From assembly GCA_002686955.1 (NCBI GenBank), contig NYZA01000262.1, positions 1-21,736 on the forward strand: DNA of 21,736 nucleotides, given 5' to 3'. Shown in pieces: positions 172 to 17,210 of the stretch (position 1 is the stretch's first letter; the number at the start of each line of letters is the position of its first letter). The notes under the pieces are model-generated. The model was given only the letters and a program-made list of their open reading frames with translations. It ran no database searches and was not told the origin of the DNA. The position numbers and the translations under genes were made by a program. The DNA comes from Gemmatimonadota bacterium (GTDB taxonomy: Bacteria; GCA-2686955).

Positions 172-182
172 CCCCGGGCTAG
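168..182. terminator. 15-bp perfect palindrome over a stop codon, possible terminator stem
   Basis: CTAGCCC-C-GGGCTAG is a perfect inverted repeat with 7-bp arms and a single central base. It contains the TAG stop (minus strand, 179-181) of the PEP/pyruvate-binding gene and the outer end of the inverted-repeat element. No T-run follows on either strand, so intrinsic termination is doubtful. It may instead be a target-site or insertion-junction signature of the element. Confidence 0.3.
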
Positions 183-1906
183 ACTTCCACGAAAACCAGC
201 CCGCTGCGCGAGCGGCCGTTGACCTGAATGCGAACAGGTGTCTTCGGCTGCAGCAGCCGCACTCCCGCGTGGCCACCGATTCGTCGTGCGTGCTCGAACC
301 ACTCTCGGTTGAGCACGCCGCCCTGTTCTTCGTCGAGGCCCATATACAGAATGTGCCCGGCGGCGATGTTGTGGAAGAAGTGGCTGCCCTGGGACGATGC
401 GACCCGATGCTCATGGGTCGAGAGCTCGACGATGAGCCTGGCTTCCGATATTTGGTGGTAGGTAACTGCGATGCCGAGCGAGAGGTTGATCGAGCCCCAT
501 CGACCGGGTCCGATCAGTAGGTAGCTCTGTTCCCTATCCCTCAGCACTCGGTTGATTCGGGCCACTTCGTCGCCAAATGCACGCGACACACTTGGAGTGA
601 GCGCCGTAGGTGGAATGTAGACGATCGGACCGGAGTGTACGAGGTCGGCGCTGCCCATGGCCGAAGAGGACCGAACGAGTACGCGCTCCGCGGCGACTTC
701 CGAGAGTCGCACCGAGCCGGAATGCCAGGTTTGCGGCAGGCGCCTGAGCTGCACGAAGTCGACGACATGGCGGCTGCGGTTGGGGGAACGAGAGATATCG
801 CCGGCGAATTCGATCTCGACCGCCCCGCCCATTCCCTCTTCGGCGCGCTCCATCACGTGGCAGAGAAGCTGGGCGAGGCGCGTGTTCTGTAGCAACCCTT
901 GGAAGGTCAGCAGTGGTATCCCTTTCGCGAGGGGGCTTTCGCTGATTGTTCGCTCGGCCGGTAGCCAGGTGGACTCGAGCAGGGACATGCCTCCATCTTC
1001 GCGGGCCACCTCCAGGGGAATGCTGGCGATCGTGGCCCTCGGATCGTCGGCGAGTCGCAAGCGACCGGAGGCCATGTCGATCGCATCGAAGCTGCGCTGG
1101 CTGTTCAATCTCACCTCTTCGGGCCGATAGAGCTCCGGTCGCAGAGAGGGGCGATGGGGCGCGAAGCGCGTGACTTGCCCGCCGCCTACCGCGCGCGTGC
1201 CGAGACCGACGGCAGCCGCGACCATTCCGTCCTCCGGGCGCAGGCTGCCGATCGGGAAGTAGTTCACCGAACCGGCGACTCCCCCGATGGTGGGGTAGAA
1301 ATAGCCCCGGTGGCGGCGGCCCGCCATCGGCTGGATGATGACCGCCATGCGCTCTTGGGAGAGCAGCATGCCCTGTCGCCGTAGTGCGCCCTTCGGGGCT
1401 TGGTGATAGGTGCTGGACCAGACCACGCGGATCGCGTCGATGAGCTGTTGCAGGCGGTCCGCCTCCTCAGGACCGTTGTTAGGAAGCAGCACGGTTTGGT
1501 AGAGCCCGGCCAAAGGGGATACAGATCCATCTTCATGGATCGAAGATGAACGGACCGCGAGGGGGATTCGGTGTTTGGCCAAATAGAGCACCAGCGACAT
1601 GACGAGCTCTCGCCGCAGGGGGATCGCGCAAAAGGCCCGTGTGATCTCGGCATCGTCGGTCCAATCGATACATTTCACGAGCTCGTTGCGCTCGACGAAG
1701 CGGTCGAACTCTCGCGTGCAGACCACCGTCGCCGGCGGGATCTCGACCCGGAATCTCGGGAACATGCGGACCAGTTCGGTCCGTCGCAGCAACACGTTCA
1801 GAAAACCGAGCCCCCGTGCTTTTCCGCCGATGCTGCCGTCACCGATCCGCGCCAGTCCGTCGCGATGACCGGGGCGGCTCGACACCAGGAGACGATGCTT
1901 GGTCAT
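179..1906 (-). CDS. PEP/pyruvate-binding (PPDK N-terminal-like) domain protein, C-terminal half of a normally fused protein
   Basis: A 575-residue protein. GSIGGKARGLGFL (24-36) and LAVRSSSIHEDG...LAGLYQTVLLPN (116-143) match the ATP-grasp-type nucleotide-binding module of pyruvate phosphate dikinase and PEP synthase. Near the C terminus, LLIGPGRWGS and SSQGSHFFHN are hallmarks of a family in which this module is fused behind two receiver-like domains in a protein of about 1000 residues, common in Bacteroidetes. No phosphohistidine swivel domain and no PEP-utilising TIM barrel are present, so it is not a complete PEP synthase. Its biological role is not established. The ATG lies 31 bp after the stop of the GT-C-like membrane gene, so the two are probably co-transcribed. 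The missing N-terminal half appears to be encoded at 3936-5246 on the other strand. The family call is firm; a catalytic activity is not implied. Confidence 0.85.
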   Translation of the reverse strand: MTKHRLLVSSRPGHRDGLARIGDGSIGGKARGLGFLNVLLRRTELVRMFPRFRVEIPPATVVCTREFDRFVERNELVKCIDWTDDAEITRAFCAIPLRRELVMSLVLYLAKHRIPLAVRSSSIHEDGSVSPLAGLYQTVLLPNNGPEEADRLQQLIDAIRVVWSSTYHQAPKGALRRQGMLLSQERMAVIIQPMAGRRHRGYFYPTIGGVAGSVNYFPIGSLRPEDGMVAAAVGLGTRAVGGGQVTRFAPHRPSLRPELYRPEEVRLNSQRSFDAIDMASGRLRLADDPRATIASIPLEVAREDGGMSLLESTWLPAERTISESPLAKGIPLLTFQGLLQNTRLAQLLCHVMERAEEGMGGAVEIEFAGDISRSPNRSRHVVDFVQLRRLPQTWHSGSVRLSEVAAERVLVRSSSAMGSADLVHSGPIVYIPPTALTPSVSRAFGDEVARINRVLRDREQSYLLIGPGRWGSINLSLGIAVTYHQISEARLIVELSTHEHRVASSQGSHFFHNIAAGHILYMGLDEEQGGVLNREWFEHARRIGGHAGVRLLQPKTPVRIQVNGRSRSGLVFVEV

Positions 1907-1937
1907 GATGAGCTATGATAGCGATGGGTAGCCAAGG

Positions 1938-3890
1938 TCAGTCGCGAGCCTCGGATCGGTCGCCGCAACAGCCGAGATGCCGGCAGACCGGGTGAGGCCG
2001 TTTTGGAAAAGGGGGGTTGATTCTCTGCGGCGGGGTCGGCCGGCGTTTGGCGAGGGCCGGCGGAGGAAACCCGGCCAGCAAGATGTGGCAGAAGCGGCTG
2101 CGTGCCGGCTCCGTCAGCTCGCCACAAAGGCGGTGCAGTTCGGCGAGGTAGGCCTCGTTGCGCTCCGGCGCCGGTTGATCCGGCTGGGCGAGAAGGTCGG
2201 TCAGGTAGTGGGCGACCATCATCTCTGCTTCCCTCCCCCCCCGCCGCTCGGTCCAGGCGTCGAGGCGCTGGAAGCTGACCCAGGCGCCGGGGTCGAGCCT
2301 TTCTCCCGCGGAGAACCTTGCAACACTCTCGGCCCGCTCGCGCTCCGCGTTCCGCGCGAGCTTGATTCCAAGGGGCGCGTAGTTCGTCCCCTTTTGTCTT
2401 GCCGTTCGCGATGGGTCCCAGGGGAAGAGAGGATCGTCCAGATAGGCAAGGAACGAAACGGTACCCAGGAAGGCCGCCGAAACCAGCGCGGCAACCCCGA
2501 ACGACCGGAGCGCGCGGCTTCTCGCGTCCAGCGCCATTCCTAGGGCGACCGCGGCGCCGAGCAGGAGCATCCACACGGCGGAGACCAAATATCGGTACGG
2601 AATGTATTCGTCGCCGGGGTAGAGCATCAGAGACTTCTCGGGGACACTTTGGGGACTGATCGCGTATCCAAGGGCGATGATCGTGAGGAAGAGAAGGGGC
2701 ACGCCTCCGGCGGTGGCCAGCACTCCCGCCTTTCTTGCTGTCTCTTGGTTGGGCTTGTGGGTGCGGGAAGGGCGCGCGAGGATCTCCGCCACGACGAGAC
2801 CCAGAATCCCAAGAACGCAAATCAGATACCAGGTGAGGCCCGCCGGTGTGCGGGATCGAAGCCGCTCAGCAGGTGGTTTCCTACCGGTCTCGGGCGAGCG
2901 TGCCGAAATGTGCGAGCGTTCCAAGCTTACCGCTCTGGAGAGAGTCTTTCCGAACGGACTCGAAGCGGGCCATCGTGCCGTAAACGCCTCCGGTAGGTCC
3001 CGGCCCAGAACTCCCACCAGATCGCGCCCCGCATCTTTCAGCGCCTCCGTCCAAGGCGTGGTCCGTGCCGAGCCGGCCGAAGGCGCCAATCCAAGTGCGG
3101 CCCTACTTGCCGAGATCGGCCGATCCAGGCTCGCTTGTCCCACGGCGACGGCCGAGTAGCCCCAAGGGGCCGCGCCAAGCGCGAATCCCGCTACGAGCAG
3201 CAAAGCCTTGCGACCGAGGAGAGGAGATGGGCGAGTCCCCAGCAACAACACAAGAACCGCGGCGGCCGCCAACAGAAATCCGTAGTAGTAGGTGACTCCC
3301 GCGCCCAGAACCAAACCGATCAGGGCAAGCCTCATGCCGATCGAGTGTCGCGATCGTCCAGTGGTTTGATCAGAACTGTCGTGGCTGAGCACGCCAAGTG
3401 TTGCAAGCAAGGCCACCGCCGAGAATGCGATCGCTTCCCCGTGATTGCCCTGGGCGCTCAAAGATGCGCGCACGAGGATGGGTGGGGGGAGAAGCAGAAA
3501 AAGTGCTGCGATCCTCTCTGCGCTCTTCCCACCGATATGAGTCGCGATCCGCATCGATGCGAAGAAAGCCACCAGCGCGAAACCGAGCGCCAGAATTTGC
3601 AGCGTCAGGGCGCTCGAGCCGAACACCGAGAAGAGACCGACGGCGAGCACACCGTTCACCAAGGAGCCGAAATCGTGGTCTCCATACTGCAGCTCGAAGA
3701 AGGCGCAGGGATAGTCGCCCAGGAGGATTTCGCGGGCGATCGTGCCGACATAGAGCTCCTCAGGCTCCACGATACGTGGGCTCGAGAGGGCCACCGGCAA
3801 GCGCACCGACAGGAAGAGCAGCGCGAGCAGAAGCGCCTTGCCTGCTCGGCGGACCGCGCTCTTGGAGACCGGAATACGAGTCTTGGCCAT
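1938..3890 (-). CDS. Polytopic membrane protein, GT-C/glycosyltransferase-39-like, function unassigned
   Basis: A 650-residue integral membrane protein read from the ATG at 3890 (MAKTRIPVSKS). The open frame extends 32 codons further, but that stretch is Arg/Gly-rich and would overlap the divergent gene. A basic N terminus is followed by a first hydrophobic segment at about 17-33. An extracytoplasmic loop with PEELYVGTIARE (43-54) follows, placed like the acidic dyad of GT-C enzymes such as ArnT or PMT. About ten hydrophobic segments alternate with loops, and the C-terminal roughly 120 residues are soluble and rich in charge and proline. The substrate is unknown; lipid-linked sugar transfer is only a fold-based guess. 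It lies upstream of, and probably in one operon with, the PEP/pyruvate-binding gene, and is divergent from the plus-strand operon with only 45 bp between starts. No strong Shine-Dalgarno sequence is visible before the chosen ATG. Confidence 0.6.
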   Translation of the reverse strand: MAKTRIPVSKSAVRRAGKALLLALLFLSVRLPVALSSPRIVEPEELYVGTIAREILLGDYPCAFFELQYGDHDFGSLVNGVLAVGLFSVFGSSALTLQILALGFALVAFFASMRIATHIGGKSAERIAALFLLLPPPILVRASLSAQGNHGEAIAFSAVALLATLGVLSHDSSDQTTGRSRHSIGMRLALIGLVLGAGVTYYYGFLLAAAAVLVLLLGTRPSPLLGRKALLLVAGFALGAAPWGYSAVAVGQASLDRPISASRAALGLAPSAGSARTTPWTEALKDAGRDLVGVLGRDLPEAFTARWPASSPFGKTLSRAVSLERSHISARSPETGRKPPAERLRSRTPAGLTWYLICVLGILGLVVAEILARPSRTHKPNQETARKAGVLATAGGVPLLFLTIIALGYAISPQSVPEKSLMLYPGDEYIPYRYLVSAVWMLLLGAAVALGMALDARSRALRSFGVAALVSAAFLGTVSFLAYLDDPLFPWDPSRTARQKGTNYAPLGIKLARNAERERAESVARFSAGERLDPGAWVSFQRLDAWTERRGGREAEMMVAHYLTDLLAQPDQPAPERNEAYLAELHRLCGELTEPARSRFCHILLAGFPPPALAKRRPTPPQRINPPFPKRPHPVCRHLGCCGDRSEARD

Positions 3891-3935
3891 GATGGAGTAT
3901 GGTAGCTCTGAAGGACATCCGCCGGAGGACCCCTC
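3891..3935. promoter_or_regulatory. 45-bp divergent intergenic region
   Basis: This is the only non-coding DNA between the membrane-protein start (minus) and the pseudo-receiver start (plus). It holds the plus-strand Shine-Dalgarno GGAGGA at 3924-3929, six bases before the TTG start. No paired -35/-10 hexamers can be pointed to. At least one of the two promoters must therefore overlap coding sequence or drive a very short leader. Shared control of the two divergent units is plausible by position only. Confidence 0.4.
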
Positions 3936-5246
3936 TTGTCGAAGCGCATGCGAGAGACGCGCGCCGCGAGCGCGGGCGTGCCCCATCCGGAACGAGAGGC
4001 GGTGCTGGCCGGCGGCGGCGAGGTGGAACGACAGCGACGTTTCGATCGTGTGTATTTCGTCGGCAGCCTGTTCCGGGGCTACGCCCTCGTAGAGGCCGCG
4101 CGTGCGGTAGACGATGCCGAGCCGCGCGCGGACGGGCTGCCCGGCGGACTGCGATTCCCCGAAATCGTGGCCGGCACGGAAGCGACATCGCTGATCGAGC
4201 TGGCCGAGACCGATCGCCGCCGGCGTGGATCGAGGGGGGTGAGCGAGCAGCTCTTCGTTCTCGATCGAGAGTTCCTGGGAGCGGACGCCGCCGGCATCGC
4301 CGCCGAGGTTCGCGAGCGCCTGCCGGGAGCCGCGGTCCTGCTCATGGTGGCCGAGACCGAAGGTCGGATCTCGACCGTTCAGGTCGAAGAGCGGGATCGC
4401 GTCGATCTGGTCGGTGTCTGGGGCGGATCGCTCGAGTCGCTGGCTTCCCTGATCTGGCTCGTGCAGGATGAGCGATCAGCTGTGCATGATCTTGGCCGCG
4501 GAATCCCGGCCCTGGTGCTCGTCGAAGATGAGCCGGCGCTCTACAGCATGTTCCTGCCGATGATCTACAACGAGCTCTTGATCCGCACGCGAGAGCTCGT
4601 TCCGGCGGGTGTGCCGGAGGAGTCGTTTTGGCGATTCCTCGATCACCGCCCGAGAATCCTCCTGGCGGAGACCTATGAGCAGGGACTGCTGATTCTGGGG
4701 CGCTACTCCCCCTATCTCATCGGCGTGATCGCCGATTTGCAGTTCCCGGTGGGCTCGGAGGTGCAGCCGGACGCGGGGTTGTGGCTTGGCGGGGTCGTTC
4801 GCGTGCTCCGCCCGACCCTTCCACTGATCATCCACTCCAATGCGAAGCAGCCTCCCGCTGGAATCGACGATCTTGCCGCTTTCTACCTGTCGAAGTCTTC
4901 TGAGGACTGGCTGCTGGAGCTGCGCCGCGTCATGCTCGACTTCTACGGCTTCGGCGATTTCGTTTTCCGCGATTCGCACGGTGTGGAGATCCGTCGGGCG
5001 CACGATGTGCGCTCGCTGCGAGACCAGCTCGCGCTCATTCCGCTCGAGAGCTTCGTCTTCCACGGGCGGCGGAATCATCTCTCCACATGGCTCTATATCC
5101 ACGGGGCTCACGAGCTCGCCCGTCGCCTTCGCCCGCTGCAAGGGGACGACGAGGGCACGCGGGCGAAGGCGGTGACGATGATGGACGAATACCTGCGGGC
5201 CACGGCCCACACACCGCCGACACTTCAGGGAGAGGTGAGCTGGTAG
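3936..5246 (+). CDS. Double pseudo-receiver protein, N-terminal half of the PEP/pyruvate-binding fusion family
   Basis: A 436-residue protein. The TTG at 3936 is preferred because GGAGGA (3924-3929) lies six bases upstream; the ATG at 3948 is too distant. Residues about 37-175 form a receiver-like alpha/beta unit without a clear acidic pocket. Residues about 190-325 form a second one with VLVEDEP (194-200), a candidate phospho-acceptor Asp267 in VIADLQFP, and Lys320 in YLSKSS. It continues with FGDFVFR (339-345) and RNHLSTWL (379-386). In related proteins of about 1000 residues these motifs directly precede the PPDK-like ATP-binding module. Here the protein ends at that boundary, and the matching module is at 179-1906 on the other strand (436 + 575 residues, about the usual fused length). 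It is the first gene of a five-gene plus-strand unit and its stop overlaps the addB start region. No DNA-binding output domain is present, so it is not an ordinary response regulator. Confidence 0.8.
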   Translation: MSKRMRETRAASAGVPHPEREAVLAGGGEVERQRRFDRVYFVGSLFRGYALVEAARAVDDAEPRADGLPGGLRFPEIVAGTEATSLIELAETDRRRRGSRGVSEQLFVLDREFLGADAAGIAAEVRERLPGAAVLLMVAETEGRISTVQVEERDRVDLVGVWGGSLESLASLIWLVQDERSAVHDLGRGIPALVLVEDEPALYSMFLPMIYNELLIRTRELVPAGVPEESFWRFLDHRPRILLAETYEQGLLILGRYSPYLIGVIADLQFPVGSEVQPDAGLWLGGVVRVLRPTLPLIIHSNAKQPPAGIDDLAAFYLSKSSEDWLLELRRVMLDFYGFGDFVFRDSHGVEIRRAHDVRSLRDQLALIPLESFVFHGRRNHLSTWLYIHGAHELARRLRPLQGDDEGTRAKAVTMMDEYLRATAHTPPTLQGEVSW

Positions 5247-8200
5247 ACCGACGCTGGAGCTCCGACGAGCTGATCGTCCTTCCCGACGCCGATCGGGTGG
5301 AGGCGGCGCTCGACGCCGAGCTGGCGAGAGGGGGACGATCTCCGGGTGAGGTCGCGGCGCTCGACGCGTCGAGCTGGATGACGGTCGCGGAGCTCGAAGC
5401 CGGCATCGCCGCGCGGACTCTTCACGGATGCGGCACGGTGAGCGAGCCGACGCTTCGCTTTCTCGTGGCGAGACTGATGGAGAAGCGGGCGGCGCCCCGG
5501 GCCGATCTGGCATCCTCCCGTACCAGTGGGTACAAGAGGGCAGCGTCGGCGGCCTTGCGGGAACTTGGCTTGCTGGATCGGGAGGAGCTGGTCCGTGCGA
5601 TCTCCGGGTTGCGGCCGGGAGCAGGCAGGGAACGGTTGCTCTTCCTAGCCGATCTGCGGGTCGATCTCGAAGATCTTCTGCGGGCGAGATCGTTGATGGA
5701 CGCGGGAATGCGCTACCGCGCGGCGCTCCGGGCGCTTGCTCTCGATGCGCCGCTGCCGACCTGCCTGCGCGACCGGACGCGCGTCGTCTTTCGCTACGTG
5801 CTCGACCTGGGTCCCCGTCGCCTGGCGCTGATCGAGGCATTGGCGAAAAGAGTGGGGGAGAGCGCCACGAAGGTGTCGATCGAGCTGCCGAGAGTGCCGC
5901 TCGATCGCTTTCTCGACGCGGCGCTCGAGCGACTGCATGCAATGGAGAGTGAAGGCTTGCCGGTGTCGGTGGTCCGGCGGGAGGCGGCTCCGGCCACCGC
6001 CGCGGCGCTCGTAGCTGCCGGCGCCCGGGGCGCCGAGGCGAGGGCGGTGATCGAAGAGGCGCGGGTGAGCATGACGCGCGGACCGGTGACGATCGCCCTC
6101 GCCGAAACGGCAGGAGAAGGGGGCACCGGCGCGATTCGGGCCCTCGAGCGAGAAGCCCGCGTGCGAGGCCTGGCGATCCATACCCGCCGGGGGGAAGCGC
6201 TGGCGGCCACCGAAATCGGTCGCCTTTTGCTGCTGGTCCACGAGCTCTTGAGCGATGACATCCCCAGAGAGGGTCTGATTCGGGCCATGGCCTCGGGGGC
6301 GGCCTCGCGGATCGATCGACGTGTGCCGTGGGAGAGAGTCGCCAGGATGCTGCGGCACACCGGCGTGACGAAGGACCGGCCCGCCGGAGCGCTGGCCCTC
6401 GCGCTCGACGAAATGGCCAGGCGGATGGAGCGGTCGCAGGAGCGCAGTCGTTTCAAGCCCGACGACGTGCGCGAGGCGGCGAGGCAGGTGGCGGAGCTCG
6501 TTGCGGTTCTGCGGACCCTCGATGGTGAGCACAGCGCGGTCGAATGGGCTCGCCTGCATGGCGATCTGCTCGATTCGGTCGGCGCCGTGCGGACCGTCGC
6601 CGCTCCCCTTCCCGCGGTCCTCGGGACTTCCCGCGACGGGAGCGGCGGCGCATCGCCGCGGATCCGGATGATGGACGATCACGCGGTCGGACGTGAAGCC
6701 AGAGCTCTTCGCGAGATCGTAGCCATTCTGGAATCGTTGCCGGAGCTCGTTGCGGGCGACCTCTCCGCGCTCCCGCGCAAGAACATCGCCGAACTTCTCC
6801 GGGACGTTCTCGAAGAGCGGCACCTTCGCACTCTGGGGGCGCGCCAGCCGAGGATCCGGATCGTGTCGCTACGAGAGCTGCCTGGGCTTCACGCCGGACG
6901 CCTGCTCATCCCAGGCGCGGTGGAGGGCGGGCTCCCTCGATCGCTCACGCCCGATCCCCTGATCTCCGATCCGATTCGCAACCGCATCAACGAGCTTCTC
7001 GATCGTCCCCTGCTCCAGATCCGAGAGGATCCGGAGGACGAAGCTCCGCCCGGTCACGTCGCGCCCCTGGCCTGGGAGCAGGAGCTACTGCTCTCGGTAG
7101 TGATCTCGGAGTCGCGGGACGGAGCCCTTCTCTTCCGCCACAAGAGCGGCGAGGACGGGCGGATCGTCCCCGAATCCCCTCTGTTGGAAGATTTGCGATC
7201 GGTGGGGCTGCTGGCCGGAGTGGAGCGGGAGCTCCCGAACGAACCACTCGGTTCGGCCTCTACGGAGCAGCGAGAGCTCGCGCGGGCGGTGTCGTCGGGA
7301 AGGGGCGAAGGAAGCGACACCCGGACGGACGACCTCCGCTTCCGCTTGGCCATGGAGGCCGCGCGATTCCGATTCTTCTCGGAGCGGAGCCTGCAGGCGG
7401 ATCGCTTCTCCGGAGAGGCGCCGGTCTCGCGGGCACTGGGTCTTCATCCCACCGACCGGGTTCTCGGCGTTGCATCGGTCGAGAGCTATGTCCGTTGTCC
7501 ATTTCGGTATTTCGGGACAAGGGTTCTGCGAATCGAAGAGGCCGAGGAAGGCGAGCCGGAGCTCGACGCGGCCTCCACCGGAACCTACCTGCACCGGCTG
7601 GCCGAAGAGGTGTACCGCCGCCTTCGTTCCGATCGACTTCTGCCCCTCGATCCGAGCGATCTCGACGCGGTGCGCACACTCGTCGACGCGGTCGAGAAGC
7701 AGCTCGATGCGTCATGGCGAGAGTGCCGGGATGTCGGGCATCCGCGGGTTTGGAGCTGCACGCGCGCCGACGCGCGCCGCAGAATGAAGAGCGTGCTGGA
7801 GCGAGACGCCGAGGAGCTGGGATCGGAAGGCTACGAGCCGGTCGAGATCGAAGCGGAGTTCGGATTCGAGGGGTCCGATTGGGCGCCGCTGGTCATCGAG
7901 CACCCCGAGGGAGATGTTCTGTTGCGGGGCCGCATAGATCGCGTCGATCGCAGGCGGGACGGCGAGGGCGTATCGCTGCTAGTTGTGGACTACAAATCCG
8001 GCAAGGCGGATTCCCACAACAAGAAGCTCACGCCGAAGTACCTTCTCCACCCGCACCTTCAGCTTCCTGCCTACGCGGCCGCCGCCGCCGCCAACTCACC
8101 GCCCGGCAGCTCGATCGACGGCCTCTTTCGTGCGTTCGGCGGCGGCAAGACGGTTCGTCTTTCGCGCCACCTCGACCCGGAAGCCCCGATCGATCTCGGA

Positions 8201-8329
8201 AGCGTCGTTCGACCCGTCGCCGGGGGCATGAGGCGAGGCTCGTTTCCGATCCGCTCGCTCGACTGCGATCATTGCTCCTTGCGTGCTGTCTGTCGTGTTG
8301 TGGAGCTCTCTTTGGAGGACGCGCCGTGA
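5240..8329 (+). CDS. addB: AddB-like subunit of the AddAB helicase-nuclease
   Basis: About 1029 residues if read from 5240. AddB partners AddA in resecting double-strand breaks for RecA loading. The N-terminal part is helicase-like but has no Walker A motif, as in AddB proteins whose motor is degenerate. VSLRELPGLHAGRLLIPG followed by EGGLPR is a typical AddB helicase-core remnant. The C-terminal RecB-type PD-(D/E)XK nuclease has GTYLHRLAEE, GRIDRVD (Asp900), VVDYKSGK (Asp917, Lys919) and a downstream QLPAY. Four cysteines (753, 1009, 1012, 1018; the last three as CX2CX5C) match the iron-sulfur cluster of AddB and Cas4 nucleases. The start is uncertain. Homology seems to begin at DELIVLPDADR, but no ATG, GTG or TTG lies between 5087 and that point. 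A CTG at 5240 beside the upstream stop, or the ATG at 5087 deep inside the previous gene, are the options. It overlaps addA by four bases. Confidence 0.85.
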   Translation: MVDRRWSSDELIVLPDADRVEAALDAELARGGRSPGEVAALDASSWMTVAELEAGIAARTLHGCGTVSEPTLRFLVARLMEKRAAPRADLASSRTSGYKRAASAALRELGLLDREELVRAISGLRPGAGRERLLFLADLRVDLEDLLRARSLMDAGMRYRAALRALALDAPLPTCLRDRTRVVFRYVLDLGPRRLALIEALAKRVGESATKVSIELPRVPLDRFLDAALERLHAMESEGLPVSVVRREAAPATAAALVAAGARGAEARAVIEEARVSMTRGPVTIALAETAGEGGTGAIRALEREARVRGLAIHTRRGEALAATEIGRLLLLVHELLSDDIPREGLIRAMASGAASRIDRRVPWERVARMLRHTGVTKDRPAGALALALDEMARRMERSQERSRFKPDDVREAARQVAELVAVLRTLDGEHSAVEWARLHGDLLDSVGAVRTVAAPLPAVLGTSRDGSGGASPRIRMMDDHAVGREARALREIVAILESLPELVAGDLSALPRKNIAELLRDVLEERHLRTLGARQPRIRIVSLRELPGLHAGRLLIPGAVEGGLPRSLTPDPLISDPIRNRINELLDRPLLQIREDPEDEAPPGHVAPLAWEQELLLSVVISESRDGALLFRHKSGEDGRIVPESPLLEDLRSVGLLAGVERELPNEPLGSASTEQRELARAVSSGRGEGSDTRTDDLRFRLAMEAARFRFFSERSLQADRFSGEAPVSRALGLHPTDRVLGVASVESYVRCPFRYFGTRVLRIEEAEEGEPELDAASTGTYLHRLAEEVYRRLRSDRLLPLDPSDLDAVRTLVDAVEKQLDASWRECRDVGHPRVWSCTRADARRRMKSVLERDAEELGSEGYEPVEIEAEFGFEGSDWAPLVIEHPEGDVLLRGRIDRVDRRRDGEGVSLLVVDYKSGKADSHNKKLTPKYLLHPHLQLPAYAAAAAANSPPGSSIDGLFRAFGGGKTVRLSRHLDPEAPIDLGSVVRPVAGGMRRGSFPIRSLDCDHCSLRAVCRVVELSLEDAP

Positions 8330-15468: not shown

Positions 15469-15840
15469 TCAGTTGAACGAGCCGTCGCCGCTCACATAGG
15501 TATAGGTTCCACCCGCGGGCCCCGTGTAGGTGTCGTTCTCCTTCTCCCAATGACGGACTACGCCATAGACGAGCACGCTGTCGAAGAGCGCATTCGTGAG
15601 GGCCGCTTCCCCATCGGCGGCGCCGTCCAGATCGAGCGGAAAGTGCTCGTGCTTGGCGTGGAAGGTCGTAATTCCAGCGCGCACGGCGCCCACGATGCCC
15701 TTTTCGGCCGCGGCCTGGGTGTCGTCCTCCAGCCCCGTGTAGCGCGGTAAGGCAATCACAGCCAGAATACCGATCACCGCGATGACGACGATCAGCTCGA
15801 TCAGCGTAAAGCCGTGGTGGGTGTGGACCTCTGTTTTCAC
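15469..15840 (-). CDS. Type IV pilin / type II secretion pseudopilin-like protein
   Basis: 123 residues from a GTG at 15840. The N terminus is a classic class III signal: a short charged leader MKTEVHTHHG, then the prepilin peptidase site G|FTLIE, then about 20 hydrophobic residues (LIVVIAVIGILAVIALPRY). The remaining roughly 85 residues are a small globular head ending in a Gly/Tyr-rich stretch (YTGPAGGTYTYVSGDGSF). The protein would be inserted in the inner membrane, cleaved and N-methylated by PilD and built into a pilus or pseudopilus. No prepilin peptidase, assembly ATPase or secretin gene is nearby, so it is an orphan pilin depending on machinery elsewhere. No clear Shine-Dalgarno sequence precedes the start. 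Whether it is a pilin, a minor pilin or a GspG-like pseudopilin cannot be decided. Confidence 0.85.
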   Translation of the reverse strand: MKTEVHTHHGFTLIELIVVIAVIGILAVIALPRYTGLEDDTQAAAEKGIVGAVRAGITTFHAKHEHFPLDLDGAADGEAALTNALFDSVLVYGVVRHWEKENDTYTGPAGGTYTYVSGDGSFN

Positions 15841-16039: not shown

Positions 16040-17044
16040 TCAGATCAACGAGCCCACCATGTCCCAGTCGGCCCATTGGTTCGAGCCGTCGCTCTGGTAG
16101 AGCCGCCCGTCGGGCGTGAGGGTGAGAAGGGTGTCGTCCCATGTGTCCGCACAAAGGGCGACAACCCTCAATGGACCATCGAAGGTGCGCACTGCGACAT
16201 CACCGACATGGCGCGGGTCCATTTCGTAAACCCCACCCATGTCGTCGACGAAGACGAAATCGGCCGTGGGCCAGCCGGCACTCTGGACACCGTCCACGGC
16301 GACCGCCCCCAGCTGGAGGGGAATCGAGGCGACCAGGCTCCAGACTGTCCAGTCTTGCTCTCCACTGCTTTCGTAGAGGTCACCATCGGAGGTCAGGGCG
16401 AACATCGTAGTCGCGTAGCCGTTGAGGAATAGGCTCACGATACCGATGGGGTCCTCCGTAGTTCGCAGGACGATGCTGGAGAGATGGCGCGGGTCGACTT
16501 CATAGATTCCGCCGATATCGTCCGAGATTACGAAGTCCCCGGTTTCACCCGCCGACTGCTGAATGTCGGCGCATCGCCCGCCCGGCTGAAGTGGAACCGT
16601 TCCAACAAGCACCCATATCGTCCAGTCGGCTTGACCGTCACTCTGGTAGAGGTCACCGTTTCTCGTGAGCGCAAGAATGCTGTCGTCATAGTGGTCTTGA
16701 GCCAGAGCCACAATATTTCGGGGCGCGTCATCCGTGCGGAAGACGTACTCACCCAAGTGCCGTGGGTCCATCTCGAAGATGGCGCCGCGGGCAGTGGCGA
16801 ACACGAAGTCCGACGATGGCCCCCCCGGGCTCTGGACGAAGTCATTGAAGGCGTGCTCGGGCGCGTCATCGAGATGGGTCGCGTGTTCGATGCCGCTTCG
16901 TGCCGAAGCGGCACCTTCATGGACAGACCAATCTCCCATAGCGTCGCCGACGCCTTCGATCTCTGTAGGGCCGGGACCCGAGTCGCAGCCCGAGGAGTTG
17001 AGAATGGCGAAGAGCATGGCCGGAGCCAGGATGAACGAGCGCAT
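16040..17044 (-). CDS. Putative secreted lipoprotein with three tandem repeats of about 91 residues
   Basis: 334 residues from the ATG at 17044, which has GGGAGGA (17049-17055) four bases upstream. The frame is open further upstream but lacks such a site. The N terminus has one positive residue, a hydrophobic core and Cys20 in NSSGC, a lipobox-like sequence with an atypical -3 residue. Three repeats begin at about 79, 170 and 262. Each runs DFVF, a GG(I/V)(Y/F)E(M/V)DPRH block, an RT and V(A/S)L strand, then LT.(D/N)G.LY(Q/E)S and (D/A)W..W..V; the first two end in (I/V)PLQ.G. The layout suggests beta-propeller-like blades, but I do not recognise the family. A sigma-54 promoter lies about 70 bp upstream and a sigma-54 activator gene precedes it, so it is probably the activator's target. 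It may be surface- or periplasm-located. Function unknown. Confidence 0.75.
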   Translation of the reverse strand: MRSFILAPAMLFAILNSSGCDSGPGPTEIEGVGDAMGDWSVHEGAASARSGIEHATHLDDAPEHAFNDFVQSPGGPSSDFVFATARGAIFEMDPRHLGEYVFRTDDAPRNIVALAQDHYDDSILALTRNGDLYQSDGQADWTIWVLVGTVPLQPGGRCADIQQSAGETGDFVISDDIGGIYEVDPRHLSSIVLRTTEDPIGIVSLFLNGYATTMFALTSDGDLYESSGEQDWTVWSLVASIPLQLGAVAVDGVQSAGWPTADFVFVDDMGGVYEMDPRHVGDVAVRTFDGPLRVVALCADTWDDTLLTLTPDGRLYQSDGSNQWADWDMVGSLI

Positions 17045-17113
17045 GGATTCCTCCCGCGTGTGTTGCAGTTCCGAGGTCGCCCCGTTGCGGCCTCGGTGGG
17101 TTGCCCGGCCTAC

Positions 17114-17130
17114 AGCAACGAGCGTGCCCA
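17114..17130 (-). promoter_or_regulatory. Sigma-54 (RpoN) -24/-12 promoter of the three-repeat lipoprotein gene
   Basis: On the minus strand the sequence reads TGGGCACGCTCGTTGCT. It holds GGCACG, four bases, then TTGCT, with exactly ten bases between the -24 GG and the -12 GC. This matches the consensus TGGCACG-N4-TTGCW apart from one extra G at the front. A start point near 17103 gives a leader of about 60 bases to the ATG at 17044. A gene for a sigma-54 activator ends 160 bp upstream on the same strand, which strongly supports the call. Confidence 0.8.
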
Positions 17131-17210
17131 GTCTCCGACCGCTCGCTATCGCGCGAGTAGTCAAGGGTTTCCGGAATGCGTTCCTCCACCAGACGCTTGT
17201 CGGGACTCTG

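Follow-up and report, generated by a model that had tools for sequence, protein, structure and literature searches.

Receiver and PEP-synthase-like modules of one protein family encoded by separate opposite-strand genes in a Gemmatimonadota genome

Two modules of one family on opposite strands

The DNA examined here (the window) is the entire 21,736-nt contig NYZA01000262.1 (C262) of assembly GCA_002686955.1, a 270-contig draft metagenome-assembled genome (MAG) of a Gemmatimonadota bacterium (4.28 Mb; completeness 84.5%, contamination 0.9%). At one end of this contig, two genes that read away from each other encode the two modules of a protein family whose other members are nearly always single polypeptides. 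The first, which we refer to as the N-half gene (3936-5246, plus strand), encodes 436 residues arranged as two receiver domains (REC1 and REC2) and a DUF5752-like domain, with the motifs VEDEP, FGDFVFR, and RNHLSTWL. The corresponding open reading frame (ORF) begins at a TTG codon with a GGAGG Shine-Dalgarno-like site 7 nt before it (3924-3928, plus strand). The second, the C-half gene (179-1906, minus strand), encodes 575 residues consisting of an ATP-grasp domain of the PPDK_N family (PF01326) and a C-terminal swivel-like domain, with the motifs GGKARGLGFL, GPGRWGS, and SQGSHFFHN. The two are separated by a GT-C-like membrane protein gene, which precedes the C-half gene on the minus strand, while the N-half gene is followed on its own strand by genes for a PD-(D/E)XK protein and a UvrD-family helicase. 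A first-pass annotation had described both ORFs, and their lengths, strands, motif blocks, and divergent arrangement around the GT-C-like gene are all present as it described them.

Both halves match the same proteins of ~1000 aa by BLASTP, with the N-half aligning to residues ~100-440 (best E-value 4e-47) and the C-half to residues ~420-1005 (best E-value 8e-98). One such fused relative is WP_041525632.1 of Parabacteroides, which is ~1000 aa and annotated as a 'PEP/pyruvate-binding domain-containing protein' (PEP, phosphoenolpyruvate). Using module profiles built by aligning 13 and 15 members of the family, we found that the profiles are covered nearly end to end (positions 27-418 of 419 for the N-half and 6-574 of 575 for the C-half) and that both catalytic sites are retained. 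Since the halves cover essentially every conserved position, the cut lies in the linker and nothing has been lost; no remnants of either module were found in the other window ORFs of at least 80 aa. The first-pass annotation had proposed that the halves are consecutive parts of single proteins of ~1000 residues, broken cleanly at a domain boundary, and these alignments agree on both counts. It had also remarked that the two lengths sum to 1011, which is correct as arithmetic but is partly a coincidence, because the N-half has inserts and tails of its own. The window therefore contains both modules of the fused family in complete form, but as two opposite-strand genes rather than one reading frame.

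Nearly all copies among the 80 loci surveyed in named genomes are fused, and those that are short lie at contig ends, carry a frame break (one case, L078), or are stand-alone C-modules. A survey of 386 genomes detected the N-module in 45 of them, at 49 places in total, within frames of 980-1404 aa, except in the window, in a contig-end fragment (G291), and at four places in a lineage that we refer to as f7. Among the loci surveyed, the window alone has the modules on opposite strands. Tandem fused paralogues were also observed at nine loci (L072, L074, L077, L101, L108, L114, L126, L140, and L143), the first protein of each pair having ~1150-1280 aa, with additional sequence at its N-terminus, and the second ~995 aa. 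The family is spread over about a dozen phyla, archaea included, and the papers we searched on the family, on DUF5752, or on a link to glutamate dehydrogenase contained nothing relevant. The family is known but uncharacterized, and what is new here is the opposite-strand fission of a paralogue, seen in a single genome.

The predicted structure of the N-half (pLDDT, the predicted local distance difference test, 85) consists of two receivers and a third domain, and the whole model matches the tandem-receiver protein PleD. REC1 (residues 36-187; 4041-4496, plus strand) retains only 6 of 20 near-invariant columns and is degenerate throughout the family, in which its phospho-acceptor column is mostly Met or Thr. 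The window REC1 has an Asp at this column (D110, nt 4263-4265), yet it is without the acidic pair. REC2 (residues 190-339; 4503-4952, plus strand) retains 14 of 17 near-invariant columns, including all 6 that are fully invariant, and its pocket is complete (E197/D198, D267 at nt 4734-4736, S301, and K320), with D267 and K320 invariant across 44 relatives. Its AlphaFold model matches the Spo0F, DivK, and KdpE receivers at Z 13-13.8, the superposition on Spo0F (Z 13.8) aligning 116 residues at a root-mean-square deviation of 2.1. The term 'pseudo-receiver' used in the first-pass annotation is thus apt for REC1 only, as the VEDEP block lies in REC2 with its full pocket. The DUF5752-like domain (residues 340-424; 4953-5207, plus strand) retains 7 of 8 near-invariant columns. 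The window N-half itself has no Pfam match, whereas 43 of the 45 members of the alignment match PF00072 and 32 match DUF5752 (PF19027).

The C-half scores 91 bits against PPDK_N, for which the curated cut-off is 27, and has no other Pfam match; it lacks a PEP-binding TIM-barrel and ends after the swivel-like domain. Its ATP-grasp domain (residues 24-392; 731-1837, minus strand) retains 48 of 53 near-invariant columns, and the ATP/Mg ligand set is present as the GGK lysine, the VRSS arginine, ExE, and QxR, with the key residues K29, R119, E125, E364, E366, Q386, and R388 all kept. The C-terminal domain (residues 396-575; 182-721, minus strand) retains 19 of 21 near-invariant columns, and for the C-module as a whole the counts are 67 of 74 near-invariant and 40 of 42 fully invariant columns. 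The predicted structure (pLDDT 89), taken over residues 6-575, aligns 352 residues with chain positions 4-467 of PEP synthase (2ols) at Z 26.8. The superposition reaches the swivel domains of 2ols, of PPDK (1dik), and of rifampin phosphotransferase (5hv3), for which we assume the generally accepted domain limits, and it covers the swivel in part. Profile comparison gives no sequence support for identifying the C-terminal domain with the swivel of PEP-utilizers, so the assignment stays a structural one. In the model, an invariant histidine (H509, nt 380-382) opens a helix of this domain, and we regard it as a candidate phospho-acceptor.

The remainder of the window provides the context of the pair. 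The GT-C-like gene (1938-3890, minus strand) has an ATG at 3890 in an ORF that is open to 3986; it lies 31 bp from the C-half gene and is divergent from the N-half gene across a 45-bp gap. Its product has no Pfam or NCBIfam match, and it has no match in G001, the only other genome of this phylum in our collection. Inspection of the minus strand revealed that the C-half and GT-C-like genes are each preceded, 8 nt before the ATG, by a TAYCAT hexamer in the style of leaderless transcripts (1907-1920 and 3891-3904). The hexamer before the C-half gene is TATCAT (1915-1920, minus strand), a weak leaderless-type -10-like site, while the one at 3899-3904 may serve both directions. A scan of the window for sigma-70 promoters found none, nor were RNA families or tRNAs found in it. 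Downstream of the N-half gene lies the PD-(D/E)XK gene (5246-8329, plus strand), whose ORF runs from 5087 and whose true start is uncertain; it is mentioned as context only. On the other side, beside the C-half gene, the contig ends in a dispersed repeat (1-167) resembling a miniature inverted-repeat transposable element, with 23-nt inverted arms (3-25 and 145-167) and many copies at contig ends. This repeat occurs at 44 scored places in the genome (40 of 98 candidates were scored), which ties the contig to this genome. Two further minus-strand genes may also be mentioned. One (16040-17164) encodes a protein with about three repeats of ~90 residues (DFVF...DPRH...YQSDG) that is possibly beta-propeller-like and secreted, and the other (15469-15840) encodes a type IV pilin-like prepilin signal (GFTLIELIVVIAVIGILAVIALP).

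A second, fused-type copy and the linkage to glutamate dehydrogenase

The commonest neighbor of the family is glutamate dehydrogenase, which is found at 47 of about 97 loci. These gdhA genes were named by sequence and by the annotated gdhA beside the Parabacteroides gene, and they lie within 300 bp at 29 of the 55 named loci that are eligible by having room on both sides. The linkage extends over ten phyla: Bacteroidota, Acidobacteriota, Ignavibacteriota, Thermodesulfobacteriota, Actinomycetota, Planctomycetota, Spirochaetota, Calditrichota, Gemmatimonadota, and the archaeal Thermoplasmatota (example loci are L041, L046, L067, L076, and L145). Other recurring neighbors, identified by sequence, are 2-oxoglutarate:ferredoxin oxidoreductase-like subunits and NuoF-like or electron-bifurcating-like proteins, and Bacteroidales members have neighbors that resemble KorAB. 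The gdhA linkage is the best functional clue to the family. There is no gdhA in the window, in which the C-half side reaches the contig edge after 178 bp, and the pair has left the gdhA context.

The same MAG also encodes a second member of the family. Positions 3-992 of another of its contigs, C171, encode the last 330 aa of a protein with 67% identity to the G001 fused protein and only about one third identity to the window C-half; the gene is truncated where the contig begins. In G001, gdhA is followed by the fused gene at a distance of 104 bp, and a further contig of the MAG, C177, ends within a gdhA that is 90% identical to that of G001. The simplest reading is that this gdhA and the fused gene flank the assembly gap between C177 and C171. 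The N-part of the fused copy was not found in this MAG, so we infer the copy from C171 and C177 together. Thus, the MAG probably also keeps a one-piece version beside glutamate dehydrogenase, and because of this fused-type copy the window pair is probably a divergent, fast-evolving second paralogue rather than a replacement of the fused protein.

The branches leading to both window genes are longer than the median by a factor of four to five (2.1 versus 0.49 for the C-half and 2.89 versus 0.59 for the N-half) and are too long for either half to be placed. A sister relation to the G001/C171 copy was neither rejected (p = 0.166 for the C-half and p = 0.39 for the N-half) nor shown, and thus the duplication may date far back in the phylum. 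A protein search of G001, which is 83% complete, did not reveal the split pair, and a contig of G001 that weakly matches the start of the downstream nuclease has no N-half beside the match. The observation made in the first-pass annotation is confirmed by these results, whereas its interpretation is partly supported. Replacement of the fused protein by the split form is not supported, since a fused-type copy in the same MAG is represented by its C-terminal third, at the edge of a contig. Conservation of the split is likewise not supported, the sole other genome of the phylum having the fused protein, with no pair detected. The first-pass annotation had named an intact fused copy elsewhere in the genome, with the two genes as unrelated paralogues, as a finding that would speak against it; such a copy is probably present, but the split genes are its homologous paralogues.

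Separate genes for the two modules have some precedent. In lineage f7 (G007, G294, and G155), whose separate-gene form is an independent one, three of the four places (L042 6027-8895, L151 44-3137, and L152 2474-5588) have a C-module gene and, after it on the same strand, an N-module ORF that overlaps it, while only an N gene was found at the fourth (L150 7868-9376); the key motifs of these genes are kept. In addition, stand-alone C-modules of 576-591 aa occur at four loci (L145 9935-11686, L047 5773-7533, L046 3183-4910, and L117 14873-16645), three of them directly downstream of gdhA, and these form a clade of their own with support of 100. Membership of the window C-half in this clade was tried and rejected (approximately unbiased test, p = 2.7e-5). 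No stand-alone N-modules were found in the 386 genomes besides those of the window and f7.

Readings of the split pair

Our reading of these results, in which our confidence is evenly balanced, is that the receiver and catalytic modules of one signaling phosphotransferase family were separated within the linker and ended up, by rearrangement, on opposite strands, with the receiver acting in trans. Action in trans is likely in our analysis and is made more plausible by the separate genes of f7. In spite of their long branches, the halves have kept 67 of 74 near-invariant C-module columns and the full set of invariant REC2 columns, which speaks for continued function of both. Erosion is confined to REC1, and this suggests a role for REC1 that depends on the covalent link or on the gdhA context. 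Several points weigh against this reading. The assembly contains only part of the fused copy, whose fusion is deduced from the G001 orthologue; the opposite-strand split is known from one genome, too few for a measurement of purifying selection on the pair; and the erosion of most conserved positions in REC1 could mean the loss of a contact needed for pairing. As for the catalytic module, the swivel homology comes from predicted structure, with profile comparison unsupportive, and the residue opposite H509 in the superposition could not be read.

It is possible, though to our minds doubtful, that the halves are instead independent, subfunctionalized proteins that form no complex. In that case, the C-half would be a phosphotransferase free of regulation whose gene shares a transcript with the GT-C-like gene, and the N-half would be a response regulator in its own right, whose target might be the fused paralogue. 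The genes do belong to different transcription units with different neighbors, REC1 is eroded, the MAG has a fused-type copy, and the receiver-less C-modules, mostly beside gdhA, form a stable clade. However, the window C-half falls outside of that clade, both modules retain their sites and lie divergently within 5 kb, and in f7 the C and N genes are separate yet lie side by side, which suggests that their function is still a joint one. That the pair is a decaying duplicate on its way to becoming pseudogenes seems improbable to us, even with the very long branches in both trees, the loss of 14 of 20 near-invariant REC1 positions, and the fused-type copy in the MAG, because the frames are intact and have start signals, both genes show the codon-position G+C of coding sequence, and of the fully invariant columns the C-module has retained 40 of 42 and REC2 has retained 6 of 6. 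We give very little credence to an origin without fission, in which the C-half would stem from an old stand-alone C lineage and the N-half would be unrelated to it: C-modules of similar size do stand alone at four other loci, but these form the separate clade that the window C-half does not join, and in the 386 genomes stand-alone N-modules were found only in the window and f7. A chimeric contig joining two partial genes is scarcely credible. This is admittedly a draft MAG of many contigs, and the window is a complete but short contig with a repeat at its end. However, a mis-join would cut arbitrarily, whereas both halves possess a start and a stop of their own and are separated within the linker; the only other fragment of either half in the MAG is the dissimilar C171 copy, and the terminal repeat ties the contig to the genome.

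If the receiver does act in trans as we propose, the pair might work as follows, with phosphotransfer, gating, and complex formation all being steps that we infer. As happens in PEP synthase and PPDK, the ATP-grasp domain would move phosphate from ATP to a histidine of the swivel-like domain, here H509, and this histidine, carried on the mobile C-terminal domain, would then pass the phosphate on or serve as a signal. Phosphorylation of D267 in REC2 would gate the transfer to H509. In the split paralogue, the N-half and the C-half operon would be expressed divergently from one short intergenic region, and the target of the receiver subunit, acting in trans, would be either the catalytic subunit or the fused paralogue. 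The fused, gdhA-linked copy would probably retain an ancestral role in glutamate/2-oxoglutarate metabolism, the split copy having left the locus. We suggest only tentatively that the pair is a bipartite two-component-type phosphotransferase, in which a dissociable receiver switches a PEP-synthase-like subunit in trans beside a fused gdhA-linked version in the same cell. As a natural split, the pair offers receiver and catalytic parts that can be made and mixed separately, so that any control of catalysis by the receiver is testable directly and without designed truncations. The gdhA linkage of the whole family may outweigh the split itself in importance. The family couples a phosphorylatable receiver with an ATP-dependent phosphotransferase module, and this suggests that signals directly control an enzyme where carbon and nitrogen metabolism meet.

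Comparison with known systems

The closest known system is the fused 'PEP/pyruvate-binding domain-containing protein' family, which has the same two modules, order of conserved blocks, and catalytic residues as the window. It differs in being encoded in one frame, often beside gdhA, with C-modules that are at best about 37% identical to that of the window, whereas the window has two opposite-strand frames and no gdhA nearby. The f7 lineage resembles the window in having two polypeptides with key motifs kept instead of one, but its genes share a strand with the C gene first, they are extremely divergent (about 85-143 bits versus 420-850), and they are known from three genomes. The stand-alone C clade, like the window C-half, has an ATP-grasp and a C-terminal domain without receivers in about 580 aa; it is a separate clade, however, and no stand-alone N-module gene was seen at its loci. 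PEP synthase, PPDK, and rifampin phosphotransferase share the ATP-grasp residues and fold with the C-half, and their swivel superposes in part, but the C-half has neither the PEP-binding barrel nor the rifampin domain, and its C-terminal domain cannot be recognized from sequence as that of PEP-utilizers. Lastly, REC-REC-output proteins of the PleD type have, like the N-half, tandem receivers of which one is degenerate and one has an intact site, but the output of PleD is a GGDEF domain, whereas that of the window family is DUF5752 together with a phosphotransferase module.

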